DNA of 64,000 nt from contig NZ_JAIERS010000002.1 of NCBI RefSeq assembly GCF_019746665.1, positions 1 to 64,000 of the forward strand. The letters are read 5' to 3'. Positions 50,474-61,308 of this stretch are shown here, in pieces. The DNA is from Sphingomonas sp. Its GTDB lineage: Bacteria > Pseudomonadota > Alphaproteobacteria > Sphingomonadales > Sphingomonadaceae. The translations under genes and the position numbers were made by a program. Below the pieces are notes generated by a model. That model made no database searches and was not told where the DNA came from. It was given only the letters and a program-made list of their open reading frames with translations. The stretch's first letter is position 1; each line of letters begins with the position of its first letter.

Positions 50474-50600
50474 GCTCCTCCCCCATAGGGGGAGGGGGAC
50501 CACGCGAAGCGTGGTGGAGGGGTATGACCCTCAGCCGGGTGGGGGACACCCCTCCGTCAGGCGCTATCGCGCCTGCCACCTCCCCTTCCAGGGGAGGAGC
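50474..50600. repeat. Inverted pair of two-hairpin REP units
   Basis: Two units face each other about 20 bases apart. The first (50474-50524) has hairpin CTCCCCC/GGGGGAG, then GGGGACC, hairpin ACCACGC/GCGTGGT and GGAGGGG. The second (50546-50600), on the other strand, has CTCCCCT/AGGGGAG, hairpin AGGCGC/GCGCCT and GGAGGGGT. Units of the same design frame the DUF559 gene at 59696-60143. They fill the 172-base gap between two convergent genes. Confidence 0.8.
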
Positions 50601-57037: not shown

Positions 57038-57895
57038 TCAGCGCGCCGTGAGCAGCGCCTGGCGCGCCTGCCAGTGGCGGGCCATCGCCGCCGTCGCCTC
57101 CGCCGACAGCGAGATGAAGGCGCGGCGCCGGTCGCGCGGATCGGGCACGCGCTCCAGCAGGCCCTGCTCGCTCAGCCGGCCGATCCAGCGCAGCGCGGTG
57201 GTCGGCGCGACCGCGGCGGCGATGCACAGCGACGAAACCGAGACGCGCACCCCCTCCAGCTCGGCGGCATAGAGATCGAGCAGCATGTCCCAGGCGGGGT
57301 CCTCGAACAGGCCCGCGCCGAAATGTTCGTCGCGCAGCCGGCGGGCGCGGAGCAGGGCGCGGATATGGCCGGCGCTGCCGGAGGTCGGGGTCGGTTCGCC
57401 CCGGAACAGCGGGCGCCGGTCGGCGAGCCCGCCCGGCGGCGGTTCGTCGCGGGTGAGCCGGGCGATCGCCTCCACCAGCCGGGCGATCTCGGCCTGGAGC
57501 GCGGCGACGCTCGCCGCATCCTGTTCGCGCACGCGCCCGCCGGCATCGCCGAGCGCGACCGCGAGCGCGGTCACACGTTCGGCGATCGTCGGCGCGCAGA
57601 GCAAGGTGGCGCGGCTATCGAGCAGGAACGCGGCCACCAGATCGATCCGCGCGGCGTCGAACGCCACCACCAGCGGCACGTCGAGCGTGGCGGCGCGTTC
57701 GAGCAGCGCGGCGAGCGGATCGTCCGCCACGCCGGCCGCCTCGATCAGCACCACATCGGCGGCGCCCGGGCCAGCGAAGTCGGCGGGCGCGACCGGCCCG
57801 ATCAGTCGCGCGCCGAGATGCCCCACGGCGTCGCGCCCCGCCGCCGCGCCGTCCACCCCGGCGACGAGCAGTACCGCGCGTTCGTCAAGCCGCAT
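57038..57895 (-). CDS. Winged-helix (MarR-like) regulator with N-terminal Rossmann-like domain
   Basis: A 285-residue protein. The first 130 residues look like a receiver or Rossmann-type fold (AVLLVAGVDGAAAGRD, ADVVLIEAAGVAD, PLVVAFDAARID) and the last 100 like a MarR-type winged helix (DMLLDLYAAELEGVRVSVSSLCIAAAVAPTTALRWIGRLSEQGLLERVPDPRDRRRAFISLS). Proteins of this layout are common in sphingomonads. Its ATG overlaps the pntB stop by one base (TGATG), so it may be made with the transhydrogenase. No conserved phosphoacceptor aspartate is obvious. Confidence 0.78.
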   Translation of the reverse strand: MRLDERAVLLVAGVDGAAAGRDAVGHLGARLIGPVAPADFAGPGAADVVLIEAAGVADDPLAALLERAATLDVPLVVAFDAARIDLVAAFLLDSRATLLCAPTIAERVTALAVALGDAGGRVREQDAASVAALQAEIARLVEAIARLTRDEPPPGGLADRRPLFRGEPTPTSGSAGHIRALLRARRLRDEHFGAGLFEDPAWDMLLDLYAAELEGVRVSVSSLCIAAAVAPTTALRWIGRLSEQGLLERVPDPRDRRRAFISLSAEATAAMARHWQARQALLTAR

Positions 57896-59391
57896 CAACC
57901 GATCGCCTTGACGATTTCCTCCACCATCTTCTTGGCATCGGCGAGCAGCATCATGGTGTTGTCCATGTAGAACACGTCGTTATCGACACCGGCATAGCCG
58001 ACGCCGCCCATGCTGCGCTTGATGAACAGCACGGTCTTGGCCTTCTCCACGTCGAACACCGGCATCCCGTAGATCGGCGATCCCTTGTCGGTCTTGGCGG
58101 CGGGGTTCACCACGTCGTTGGCGCCGATGATGAAGGCGACATCGGTCTGCGCGAATTCGCTGTTGATGTCCTCCAGCTCGAACACCTCGTCATAGGGCAC
58201 GTTCGCTTCGGCGAGCAGCACGTTCATGTGCCCGGGCATCCGGCCGGCGACGGGGTGGATCGCGAACTTCACGCTCACCCCCTTTTCCTTCAGCTTGTCG
58301 GTCATCTCGCGCAGGATGTGCTGCGCCTGGGCGACCGCCATGCCGTAACCGGGGACGATGATCACCTGTTCGGCCTGGGTCATCAGGAAGGCGGCGTCGT
58401 CGGCCGAGCCGCGCTTCCACGGCCGGTCGACCTTGGCGGCGCCCCCGCCGCCGCTGTCGCTCGCGCCGAAGCCGCCCGCGATCACGCTGATGAAGCTGCG
58501 GTTCATCGCGTTGCACATGATGTAGCTGAGGATCGCGCCCGAGCTGCCCACCAGCGCGCCGGTGATGATCATCGCGGTGTTGTGGAGCGTGAACCCCATC
58601 GCCGCCGCCGCCCAGCCCGAATAGCTGTTGAGCATCGAGACGACGACCGGCATGTCCGCCCCGCCGATCGGGATGATCAGCAGGAAGCCGATCGCGAAGG
58701 CGAGCAACGTCACCACCCCGAACACCCACAGCGATTGATCGGTGAGGAAATAGCCGATCAGCCCGAGGATCGCGGCGAGTGTGCCGAGGTTGATGATGTG
58801 GCGCGCGGGCAGCAGGATGGGCTTGCCGCTCATATTGCCGTTCAACTTTGCGAACGCGATCACCGAGCCCGAGAAGGTGATCGCGCCGATCGCCACGCCT
58901 AGGCCCATCTCGACCCGGCTCTGGAGGAAAATCTGCCCGGCGGCGGCGATGCCGAACGCCTCCGGGTTCAGATACGCCGCCCAGCCAACCAGCACCGCCG
59001 CCAGGCCCACCAGCGAGTGGAACGCGGCGACCAGCTGCGGCATGTCGGTCATCTTGATCCGGCGCGAGGTGGTGACGCCGATCACCGCGCCGATCGCGAT
59101 CGCGATCAGGATTTCGGCGAGCGCGCCATAATCGAGCTGGAAGACATGGCCGCAGAAGGACTCCTTGCCGACGCACGCCTCGGGCGGCAGCTGCACGGCG
59201 GGGGCGTGGGTGAGGAGCGTCGTTACCACCGCGATGCCCATGCCGATCATGCCATAGCGATTGCCCTGGCGGCTCGACGCCGGGCTCGACAGCCCGCGCA
59301 GCGCGAGGATGAAGCACACGCCCGCGACCAGATAGGCGAGCGCGACCCAGGGATTGACGGCAACCGCTTCGTGCATCGTTTGAGCCCCCAT
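57895..59391 (-). CDS. pntB: Proton-translocating NAD(P)+ transhydrogenase, beta subunit
   Basis: A 498-residue subunit with about nine membrane helices and the NADP(H)-binding domain III from about residue 320. Domain III shows VIIVPGYGMAVAQAQHILREM, VKFAIHPVAGRMPGHMNVLLAEANVPYDEVFELEDIN and IIGANDVVNPAAKTDKGSPIYGMPVFDVEKAKTVLFIKRSM. With PntAA and PntAB it uses the proton gradient to reduce NADP+ with NADH. It lies 6 bases after pntAB. ATG 59391 has MGAQTMHEAVAVNPW; MHEAV at 59376 is the alternative. Confidence 0.95.
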   Translation of the reverse strand: MGAQTMHEAVAVNPWVALAYLVAGVCFILALRGLSSPASSRQGNRYGMIGMGIAVVTTLLTHAPAVQLPPEACVGKESFCGHVFQLDYGALAEILIAIAIGAVIGVTTSRRIKMTDMPQLVAAFHSLVGLAAVLVGWAAYLNPEAFGIAAAGQIFLQSRVEMGLGVAIGAITFSGSVIAFAKLNGNMSGKPILLPARHIINLGTLAAILGLIGYFLTDQSLWVFGVVTLLAFAIGFLLIIPIGGADMPVVVSMLNSYSGWAAAAMGFTLHNTAMIITGALVGSSGAILSYIMCNAMNRSFISVIAGGFGASDSGGGGAAKVDRPWKRGSADDAAFLMTQAEQVIIVPGYGMAVAQAQHILREMTDKLKEKGVSVKFAIHPVAGRMPGHMNVLLAEANVPYDEVFELEDINSEFAQTDVAFIIGANDVVNPAAKTDKGSPIYGMPVFDVEKAKTVLFIKRSMGGVGYAGVDNDVFYMDNTMMLLADAKKMVEEIVKAIG

Positions 59392-59397
59392 GGCGCG

Positions 59398-59679
59398 TTA
59401 CTTCGCCTTCTTCTTGTACATGGCGAGCATCCGCTCGGTGACGGCGAACCCGCCGAAGATGTTGATGCTGGCGAGCACTACGGCCGCGAGCCCGAGATAT
59501 TTGGCGACCGGCGACCCCGCCGCCGCCCCCGCGACGAGTGCGCCGACGATGATCACCGAGGAAATCGCGTTCGTCACCGCCATCAGCGGCGTGTGCAGCG
59601 CGGGCGTGACCGACCAGACGACATAATAGCCGACGAAACACGCCATCACGAAGATCGACAGGGTGGAGATGAAGTCCAT
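59398..59679 (-). CDS. pntAB: Transhydrogenase alpha subunit, membrane part
   Basis: A 93-residue subunit with three helices that completes domain II of the split alpha chain found in many alphaproteobacteria: ISTLSIFVMACFVGYYVVW, TPLMAVTNAISSVIIVGALV, GLAAVVLASINIFGGFAVTERML. Normally it follows pntAA directly. Here a DUF559 gene lies between; the DUF559 stop shares one base with this ATG, and GGGAG at about 59688 serves as ribosome site. Confidence 0.93.
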   Translation of the reverse strand: MDFISTLSIFVMACFVGYYVVWSVTPALHTPLMAVTNAISSVIIVGALVAGAAAGSPVAKYLGLAAVVLASINIFGGFAVTERMLAMYKKKAK

Positions 59680-60152
59680 CAATAGGCTCCCACAGGAACC
59701 TCCCCATGCACCGCATGGGGAGGGGGACCGCCCGCAGGGCGGTGGAGGGGCAAGGCGACGCTTGCCACGATCGCTTCGGCGACTTGTTCGGGATCGGCGA
59801 GCACATCGCCGGCCGCGACGCGGATCACGCGCAGGCCATGCGCGGCAAGGAACGCATCCTTAGCGGCGTCACGCTCCGGCTGATCGCCGCAATCATGCGC
59901 GTGGCCGTCGATTTCGACGACCAAGCGAGCCGCCGGCGCGTAAAGATCAAGCACATAGGGCGGTAGCGGGTGTTGCTTGCGAAATTTGAGGCCCAGTGCC
60001 CGGCGTCGCAGGCAGCGCCACAACAGAACTTCGGGCAAGCTCATCCTTTTGCGGAGTTGCCGCGCTCGCCGCAGCGTCGCTGCCCCTCCACCGTTCGCCG
60101 ATGGCGAACGGTCCCCCTCCCCATGCGGGGCATGGGGAGGTTCGGCTCTCAC
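59679..60152 (-). CDS. DUF559 (VSR-like endonuclease fold) protein between pntAA and pntAB
   Basis: A 157-residue protein. The DUF559 core reads RARQLRKRMSLPEVLLWRCLRRRALGLKFRKQHPLPPYVLDLYAPAARLVVEIDGHAHD, with the PD-(D/E)xK-type residues DLY...VEIDGHAH, then RVIRVAAGDVLADPEQV. Family members resemble very-short-patch-repair endonucleases. The first 26 residues and the last 20 are read from the inverted repeats that frame it. GTG 60152 was taken; ATG 60044 is the next start but truncates the domain. The stop overlaps the pntAB start by one base. Confidence 0.82.
   Translation of the reverse strand: MRAEPPHAPHGEGDRSPSANGGGAATLRRARQLRKRMSLPEVLLWRCLRRRALGLKFRKQHPLPPYVLDLYAPAARLVVEIDGHAHDCGDQPERDAAKDAFLAAHGLRVIRVAAGDVLADPEQVAEAIVASVALPLHRPAGGPPPHAVHGEVPVGAY
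59696..59752. repeat. Left repeat framing the DUF559 gene
   Basis: Starts GAACCTCCCCATGC and folds into two hairpins: CCTCCCCATG/CATGGGGAGG and ACCGCCC/GGGCGGT, ending GGAGGGGCA. It matches the inverted copy at 60081-60143 at both ends and in the first hairpin; only the second stem differs, keeping its pairing. It begins 17 bases before the pntAB ATG. Confidence 0.85.
60081..60143. repeat. Right repeat framing the DUF559 gene (inverted copy)
   Basis: On the minus strand it reads GAACCTCCCCATGC, hairpin, GGGGGACCG, a stem GTTCGCC/GGCGAAC, CGGTGGAGGGGCA. The outer sequence and first hairpin equal the left copy except for one loop base. It provides codons for the N-terminus of the DUF559 ORF. 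Confidence 0.85.
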
Positions 60153-60186
60153 CGATGCTGCCCCCGGTTGCGGACGCCAACGAAAG

Positions 60187-61308
60187 TCACCCCAACAGCC
60201 TCGGGTTCACCACCTGGCCGTCCTTGGTCAGCCGGATCGCGTCGCCGATCTCGGCGTCGAGCACCGGGCGCTTGGCTTCCTTGTCCCAGAAGGCCGAGAG
60301 GAAATTGAACAGGTTGCGCGCATAGAGCGCCGAGGCGTCGGCGGCGAGGCGGCTTGGCATGTTGCGATGGCCGACGATCCGCACCCCGTGGCGCTCGACC
60401 ACCTCGCCCGGCACCGACCCTTCCACATTGCCGCCCTGTTCGACCGCGAGATCGACGATCACCGAACCCGGGCGCATCGAGGCGATCTGCGCGTCGCTCA
60501 CCAGCCGCGGCGCCGCGCGGCCGGGGATCAGCGCGGTCGTGATCACGATGTCCTGCTTGGCGATGTGCGACGAGACCAACTCGGCCTGCGCCGCCTGATA
60601 TTCGGCCGACATCTCGGTCGCATAGCCGCCGCTGCCCTCGCCCTCGATCCCCGCCACCTTCTCGACGAAGATCGGCTTGGCGCCGAGCGAGAGGATCTGC
60701 TCCTTGGTCGCGGCGCGCACGTCGGTGGCGGAGATCTGCGCGCCGAGCCGCCGCGCGGTCGCGATCGCCTGCAGCCCGGCGACGCCCACCCCCATCACGA
60801 ACACGCGCGCGGCCGAGACCGTGCCCGCCGCGGTCATCATCATCGGGAATGCGCGGCCATATTCGGCCGCCGCGTCGAGCACCGCCTTATAGCCCGCGAG
60901 GTTCGCCTGGCTGGAAAGCACGTCCATTGACTGGGCGCGGGTGATGCGCGGCATGAACTCCATCGCCAGCGCCTCGAACCCCGCCGCCGCATAGGCGTCG
61001 ACCCGGCCGCGCTCGCCGAACGGGTTGAGGATCGCCGCCAGCCACGCGCCGGGCTTGGCGCCGGCAAGGCTCGCCGGATCAGGCCCCTGCACGCCGAGCA
61101 CGATATCGGCGTCCGCCAACACCCCCGCCCGGTCGGCGATCGTCGCTCCCGCCTCGGCATAGGCGGCGTCGGCGATCGCCGCGCCATCGCCCGCGCCCGC
61201 TTCCACCGCCAGCGTCGCGCCGAGCTGGCCAAGCTTCTTCACCGTCTCCGGGGTCGCGGCGACTCTGCGCTCCCCAACGACTTGCTCCTTGAGGACCGCG
61301 ATTTTCAT
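60187..61308 (-). CDS. pntAA: Transhydrogenase alpha subunit, NAD-binding part
   Basis: A 373-residue soluble subunit (domain I) that binds NAD(H). MKIAVLKEQVVGERRVAATPETVKKL begins it, as usual for Rhodospirillum-type PntAA. Landmarks are AMEFMPRITRAQSMDVLSSQANLAGYKAV, VFVMGVGVAGLQAIATARRLGA and SVIVDLAVEQGGN. It is preceded on the same strand by a cytochrome oxidase subunit IV peptide (5 bases) and followed, after 34 bases, by the inserted DUF559 gene. Confidence 0.95.
   Translation of the reverse strand: MKIAVLKEQVVGERRVAATPETVKKLGQLGATLAVEAGAGDGAAIADAAYAEAGATIADRAGVLADADIVLGVQGPDPASLAGAKPGAWLAAILNPFGERGRVDAYAAAGFEALAMEFMPRITRAQSMDVLSSQANLAGYKAVLDAAAEYGRAFPMMMTAAGTVSAARVFVMGVGVAGLQAIATARRLGAQISATDVRAATKEQILSLGAKPIFVEKVAGIEGEGSGGYATEMSAEYQAAQAELVSSHIAKQDIVITTALIPGRAAPRLVSDAQIASMRPGSVIVDLAVEQGGNVEGSVPGEVVERHGVRIVGHRNMPSRLAADASALYARNLFNFLSAFWDKEAKRPVLDAEIGDAIRLTKDGQVVNPRLLG

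Follow-up and report, generated by a model that had tools for sequence, protein, structure and literature searches.

RAYTs, transposases of the HUH type, are mostly single genes that are kept vertically. In the RAYT/REPIN system, as described in the available parts of PMC2817692, the gene lies between two inverted repeats, the type of repeat tracks the clade of the gene, copy number tracks the gene, and gene-less inverted pairs are dispersed—all traits that recur at the DUF559 loci discussed here. The BoxC/PIT/TM motif is a further point of comparison. According to Holder et al. (2015, PMC4666352), this motif folds into an intrastrand purine triplex in vitro, and more than 260 genomes carry it; the sections of that paper available to us treat a stable triplex in vivo as unsupported, place the motif in inverted pairs at five E. 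coli K-12 places, state that the E. coli copies have no mobility gene nearby, and leave the origin open. BoxC/PIT/TM elements resemble the repeats described below in their mirror-tail hairpin, their inverted pairs, and their many copies, but differ in having been published, in those sections, without any mobility gene. The 2010 genome paper of Enterobacter sp. 638, in its accessible text, counts 100 copies of the palindrome, for which termination was proposed (PMC2869309).

The protein family in question, YcjD/DUF559 (PF04480), has already been placed among the PD-(D/E)XK nucleases in the consulted part of PMC1189080. A member from Caulobacter, VsrA, carries a DUF559 domain and has been proposed to be a Vsr-like T:G mismatch endonuclease, one that the DNA-damage response probably induces (PMC12907096, in part). 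VsrA thus belongs to the same family as the protein described here and is likewise PD-(D/E)XK/Vsr-like, and the difference lies in the mismatch role given to it; the word 'palindrom' is absent from the VsrA text. The available portions of the YcjD literature (PMC12817139, PMC1189080) describe no repeat partner, and the open-access texts, with subscription papers and preprints outside their scope, hold nothing in their accessible parts that links DUF559 or ycjD with these repeats.

Here we analyse a stretch of 64,000 nucleotides from Sphingomonas sp. (positions 1 to 64,000 of contig NZ_JAIERS010000002.1, assembly GCF_019746665.1), referred to as the window. In an initial annotation of this DNA, a DUF559 gene framed by inverted repeats was placed between pntAA and pntAB, and both the coordinates and the complementarity of the repeats bear this out. 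All of the genes concerned are on the minus strand: pntAA at 60187-61308 and pntAB at 59398-59679, each recognised from an ORF and a family match; pntB at 57895-59391, an ORF identified by its operon position and by the initial annotation; and the DUF559 gene (YcjD-type, putative PD-(D/E)XK fold) at 59679-60152, an ORF with a PF04480 match, whose DUF559 domain covers 59760-60071 (minus strand) in a domain search. The start codon of this gene is uncertain because the ORF passes through a repeat at both ends; at the other end, base 59679 is common to its TGA stop and the ATG of pntAB, the shared base that had been described before.

Read toward the gene, each repeat consists of a CCTCCCC-ATGC-NNN-GCAT-GGGGAGG palindrome, GGG, a second stem of the form ACC...GGT, and GGAGGGG. 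On the pntAB side (plus strand), inverted-repeat and pattern searches place the main palindrome (CCTCCCC.../...GGGGAGG) at 59699-59723, sequence reading and a pairing test place the second stem (ACC...GGT) at 59727-59743, and the tail GGAGGGG at 59744-59750, read from the sequence and from a mirror rule over 311 units, mirrors the purine arm GGGGAGG. On the pntAA side (minus strand), the same approaches give the main palindrome at 60116-60140, a fully paired second stem of other sequence at 60090-60112, and, by sequence reading, the tail GGAGGGG (CCCCTCC on the plus strand) at 60083-60089. Positions 59696-59735 and 60104-60143 form an inverted repeat that is 93% complementary, and a further 13 nt of inverted repeat (59740-59752 with 60081-60093) are 100% complementary. 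Both differences first reported between the two copies are present: the main palindromes are one loop base apart (ACC versus CCC, both read toward the gene), and the second stems are unlike in sequence and length, yet both pair fully—ACCGCCCGCAGGGCGGT (7 bp) and ACCGTTCGCCATCGGCGAACGGT (10 bp). The palindrome pattern is found four times in the window versus a shuffled mean of 0.01, a count reached by none of 100 shuffles, and 74 times in the whole genome versus once for the reversed pattern. A known RNA family at the locus was ruled out, with no Rfam family matching near its gathering score in 59200-60600.

The window protein matches Pfam DUF559 (PF04480) over residues 28-131 with an E-value of 1.7e-25 and 89.4 bits (gathering cut-off 20.6); its Pfam matches are DUF559, MTES_1575, and DUF2726 only, and the HUH/Y1_Tnp domain is absent from them. 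Residues E15, Q34, D43, E54, D56, H60, and D69 are each present in at least 238 of 242 aligned DUF559 domains (one of which contains a stop), and all are kept in the window protein. This near-invariant set (E, Q, D, E-x-D, H, D) is of the active-site type and, by analogy, may be catalytic. An AF2 model of the protein has a mean pLDDT of 80.6, with domain blocks mostly at 89-96 and one at 65, and the closest folds found with Foldseek are 3hrl (E 1.6e-5), the homing endonuclease I-Bth0305I (3e-4), and Vsr (2.8e-3). The predicted fold is thus nuclease-type and resembles the Vsr-like catalytic fold of the latter two; to our knowledge, framing repeats are not a feature of I-Bth0305I-type homing endonucleases or of Vsr. 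DUF559 genes are under purifying selection, with a median dN/dS of 0.12 over 30 close pairs.

The window genome (3.10 Mb, 30 contigs) has four DUF559 genes, and by sequence reading all four are framed by inverted palindromic repeats, which are of three types; their framing scores are 61-83, versus at most 32 for same-contig controls. Across the genus, DUF559 is present in 57 of 61 genomes with 217 matches in all, from which the best 152 make up the genus set, excluding 65 weaker ones. Loci were scored as framed if an inverted repeat scoring at least 38 was found between the 300 nt on either side of the gene. This holds for 134 of the 152 loci and for 0 of 148 far-flank controls, and DUF559 genes elsewhere in the genus are therefore framed by such repeats, as the idea of a cassette at pnt had led one to expect. 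Among the 18 unframed loci, 14 retain a palindrome on at least one side, and a palindrome scan found none in the other four (L137, L147, L169, L186). Palindromes align in both orders, so the tails were used to determine orientation: the gene-proximal purine tail points toward the gene on 228 of the 268 flanks of framed loci (9 outward, 12 ties, 19 unreadable), and on both sides in 99 of the 134 loci. Local alignment alone does not always favour the inverted order since the units are palindromic; by plain alignment score the inverted order is higher in 109 framed loci and the direct order in 24, with one tie.

Judged from sequence, the framing repeats share the BoxC/PIT/TM design, in which a hairpin with one pyrimidine and one purine arm precedes a purine tail, the mirror image of the purine arm. 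When T is accepted opposite A and only units with a purine-rich core are taken, the tail mirrors the arm 9/9 in 212 of 311 units from framed loci and is a direct copy 9/9 in 127; in the 195 units with an asymmetric core the mirror beats the direct copy in 110 and loses in 19, the rest being ties. In three of the nuclease clades introduced below (A, D, and H), the direct-copy reading of the tail is on a par with the mirror reading or slightly ahead of it. Clades B, C, and G carry a second hairpin inside the second loop. All 40 clade B units found (29 of them distinct) have this hairpin paired with an arm of at least 6 bp, the outer ACC/GGT being fixed by the search, and mixed halves reach the same pairing in 26%. 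Compared by eye with the TM_ECO consensus and its 3-nt second loop, the window repeats do not match, having CCTCCCC arms and a structured second loop of 20-26 nt. With these shorter arms and long structured second loop, the window copies are a variant rather than the strict E. coli consensus. The 'REP sequences' of the initial annotation are not classical GTAG REPs, as GTAG or CTAC occurs anywhere in just 13 of 133 framed units of clades A-H with no conserved GTAG tag, and their layout is that of the BoxC/PIT intrastrand triplex.

In a tree of the DUF559 domains, eight clades named A-H can be distinguished, and the repeat type follows the nuclease clade; three of the 152 loci (L044, L091, L186) fall outside these clades, leaving 149 that are clade-assigned. 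Protein distance and repeat similarity are correlated over 134 loci (rho -0.49), and when repeats are permuted within genomes the mean rho is -0.09 and the lowest -0.28, so that 0 of 500 permutations reach the observed value. Palindromes of the E type have a median of 35.5 in the 18 genomes with a clade E nuclease versus 1 in the 43 without (p 1.3e-5), with exceptions on both sides: 11 genomes without a clade E nuclease hold at least 10 E-type palindromes, and two with one hold fewer than three. The number of DUF559 genes tracks the number of palindromes over 61 genomes (rho 0.76; genome size versus palindromes, 0.34), where palindrome number is the sum of three patterns that were picked after viewing the repeats and that leave some types outside their reach. 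Median palindrome counts are 12.5 at one DUF559 copy, 50 at two or three, and 169.5 at four or more, and the four genus genomes without DUF559 have 2, 5, 6, and 7. These nearly palindrome-free genomes are G006, G048, G049, and G059, and G006 has a RAYT-type gene.

Adjacent palindromes are spaced bimodally. In three genomes with their places listed, with G000 represented by the first 50 of its 74 places and the partial lists of other genomes excluded, 26 pairs are at most 130 nt apart and eight are 300-650 nt apart; all eight of the latter listed pairs contain a DUF559 gene. In a blind test, a 447-nt pair in G033 that had no DUF559 gene among the matches listed was found to contain one (E 2.2e-34). 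From the bimodal spacing and this test, the unit that carries the gene resembles a gene-less pair that has the nuclease gene between its two repeats. The analogy with RAYTs drawn in the initial annotation agrees with the nuclease-repeat specificity and with the copy-number correlation. Of the features that characterise RAYTs, the DUF559 loci have inverted framing, gene-repeat coevolution, and an abundance that tracks gene presence (with exceptions), and lack the HUH/Y1_Tnp domain and GTAG-tagged repeats; in place of these they have an enzyme with a predicted PD-(D/E)XK/Vsr fold and a repeat with a mirror purine tail.

Framing extends beyond the genus. In 90 outside loci—30 returned by the search and 60 hand-picked from its rows, mostly one per genome—55 are framed (6/10 in other genera of the family, 27/44 in other families of the class, and 22/36 in other classes of the phylum), versus 0 of 90 controls. 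Over the 110 flanks of the framed loci, 72 tails point toward the gene and 13 away from it, with 7 ties and 18 unreadable, and the direct score exceeds the inverted in 18 of the 55 framed loci. We also examined 80 named loci, including those of Xanthomonas, Rhodanobacter, Nitrospira, Gastranaerophilales, and Chloroflexi. Two (L289, L299) were dropped for a flank that was too short, which left 78 testable loci of which 57 scored at least 38; after removal of L348, an artefact of a run of N, 56 of 77 are framed versus 2 of 71 controls, a count that retains L366, whose inverted repeat score of 252 probably reflects an insertion sequence.

The DUF559 gene of E. coli K-12 is ycjD. By eye, its last codons (the C-terminus) lie inside a BoxC-like element (L288 4206-4424), and a full BoxC follows some 170 nt farther on; repeats were also sought on the 5' side of K-12 ycjD and none was found, so that here they are on the 3' side only. 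At least 80% of the ycjD region is covered in 3,362 of 5,426 E. coli genomes. According to the available part of PMC12817139, ycjD is found in phylogroups A, B1, and C, with eefRABCD in its place elsewhere. In a spread of 60 records (plasmid record H100 dropped), the median number of BoxC-like places is 21 in the 37 chromosomes with ycjD versus 12 in the 22 without—a count that is a proxy for BoxC number, as any part-query match counts as a place, and a correlation that is confounded with lineage, as ycjD tracks phylogroups. The fabI-sapF gap holds either ycjD or the eef efflux operon; a clean empty site in E. coli was therefore discarded as a candidate, with no junction readable where the operon fills the gap.

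A different E. coli site, hrpB-mrcB, was aligned in five strains: the BoxC pair is present in K-12 and strain 155, absent in two, and collapsed to one palindrome in an O111:H8 strain. The pair-less junction of the two strains shows no clean target duplication, and exact repeat boundaries were rejected as a reading of this site because the pair-less allele also differs in nearby bases. Comparison of L391 with L389 shows the collapse to be a deletion between the inverted arms, which left a scar of the type seen in L064 at pnt.

The pnt site itself varies among relatives. DUF559 is in the pntAA-pntAB gap in 8 of 30 fetched loci, and coordinates add 9 of the other 30, so that the gene is there in at least 17 of the 60 genomes in which pntAB was matched. 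Among the fetched junctions, seven are tight and free of repeats, with gaps of 21-31 nt between protein matches; relatives thus do not all carry DUF559 here, and the empty sites that the initial annotation had asked about exist. Gene-less remnants were seen by eye: a solo palindrome in the 36-nt gap of L064, a repeat pair without a gene in L058, and a half remnant of a repeat in L076. The filled locus L061 and the empty locus L063 are, by eye, the same up to the pntAA stop, where the repeat starts. Other small genes occupy the gap in L050, L053, L055, L056, L059, L066, L067, L071, L075, and L078; judged by eye, the ORFs of L050 and L059 are similar to a HicA/HicB pair, and a single recurrent small protein seems to account for several of the others. 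The pnt gap is tolerant to insertion.

Grouping loci by homology of their outer flanks indicates how the genes are inherited. In five of the eight clades (A, C, E, G, H) most loci are at one or two sites, in contrast to clade B (29 loci at 16 sites, 11 of the loci at pnt), clade D (7 loci, 5 sites), and clade F (13 loci, 12 sites). Overall, 98 of the 149 clade-assigned loci are at sites common to six or more loci; with about two thirds at such sites, many copies look old. The pnt genes occupy two places in the tree: L057 and L060 group with B' genes located elsewhere, and the other 14 tested form a second group together with four genes located elsewhere, a pattern consistent either with the site having been filled twice or with one old insertion followed by later moves. 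The two tree places, the 11 clade B loci at pnt, and the few sites of five clades make the pnt insertion look old, and a recent one-off insertion is unsupported. The 'compact cassette' of the initial annotation therefore describes anatomy, a gene within inverted repeats, and not recent movement.

Taken at the level of the locus, the DUF559 gene and its framing repeats probably constitute one functional unit of a widespread nuclease-repeat partnership that is RAYT/REPIN-like with an unrelated PD-(D/E)XK nuclease. In the mechanism that we propose, structured repeats of the BoxC/PIT-like kind would be recognised and bound by sub-type, each nuclease clade having its own. Such a repeat comprises a pyrimidine/purine hairpin, in some cases a second hairpin, and a purine tail that could fold back to provide a third strand. 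The inverted pair would become single-stranded, replication forks being the likeliest place, and the nuclease would cut the folded repeat or the DNA next to it. When the broken ends are repaired or copied, the repeats could be mobilised, spreading and being renewed as gene-less pairs about 80-120 nt apart, with the nuclease as the putative cause of their spread, while the gene-framing copy would mostly be inherited vertically. The confinement of clades C, E, G, and H mostly to one or two sites would also suit a domesticated gene.

The resemblance of the model to I-Bth0305I, its second-best fold match, invites comparison with a homing-type selfish element, in which the nuclease would cut a gene-less repeat allele and the gene would be copied in by repair via repeat homology, leaving gene-less repeats as a side product. 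Such an element would suit clade F with its 12 sites in 13 loci, the two tree places of the pnt genes, which are expected if the site was filled more than once, and the gene-less remnants at pnt (the L064 palindrome, the L058 pair, and the L076 half remnant, all by eye). We nevertheless consider it unlikely, as five of the eight clades are mostly at one or two sites, homing does not call for gene-less pairs to correlate in copy number, and the two tree places could also stem from one old pnt insertion and later moves. The nuclease might instead serve the host as a guardian or repair enzyme that resolves hairpins, triplexes, or mismatches, with repeat-rich genomes keeping the nuclease and cause running from repeats to nuclease; the low dN/dS, the many shared sites, and the description of Caulobacter VsrA as a Vsr-like mismatch endonuclease (PMC12907096, in the part available) would accord with this. 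By itself, however, a guardian role explains neither why the gene lies between inverted copies of its own repeat sub-type nor the clade-specific matching, and we regard it as improbable.

Far less weight can be given to the idea that the repeats gather in insertion-tolerant gaps where DUF559 happens to be. The pnt gap does take other genes in relatives, but the unframed control flanks (0 of 148), the DUF559 genes inside all eight listed pairs at 300-650 nt and inside the G033 blind-test pair, and the clade-specific repeat matching speak against a mere passenger, a reading that the far-flank controls, spacing, and blind test largely refute. Mobilisation of the repeats in trans by a RAYT is scarcely credible. 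Y1_Tnp genes were matched at E 0.001 in 4 of the 61 genus genomes; the remaining 57, among them the window's own, gave no match at this threshold, on which ground this candidate was rejected, and G006, one of the four, has no DUF559 and few palindromes. The units also lack a conserved GTAG tag.

If the partnership between nuclease and repeat is real, it suggests that DUF559 is the long-missing enzyme partner of scattered repeats that have been known for decades and never explained. The BoxC/PIT/TM repeats, reported from more than 260 genomes including E. coli (PMC4666352, in part), would gain a candidate maker in a nuclease family with matching frames, an idea that is testable in E. coli K-12 via ycjD. 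More tentatively, we raise the possibility that DUF559/YcjD nucleases made and maintain the BoxC/PIT repeats across bacteria; they would then be a second, HUH-independent class of repeat-dispersing enzymes, in which a nuclease with a Vsr/homing fold reads the folded (hairpin or triplex) shape of a clade-specific repeat. A real partnership would also mean that the REP/RAYT way of life, in which an enzyme persists alongside a population of small, dispersed repeats, arose with an unrelated enzyme too, and a family of unknown function (DUF559) would have a likely substrate.

The CGTC-tagged REPs of Alphaproteobacteria are said to be without a dedicated transposase (PMC3733652), and B' units such as those of L138, L180, and L191 carry, by eye, a second hairpin in which one strand contains CGTC and the end is CCA-like; this by-eye resemblance is a lead only. 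Apart from the framing repeats at pnt, the window holds a gene-less REPIN-like pair at 50477-50597, in which one B-type and one B'-type unit, typed by eye, are joined in inverted order as a hybrid of the two.
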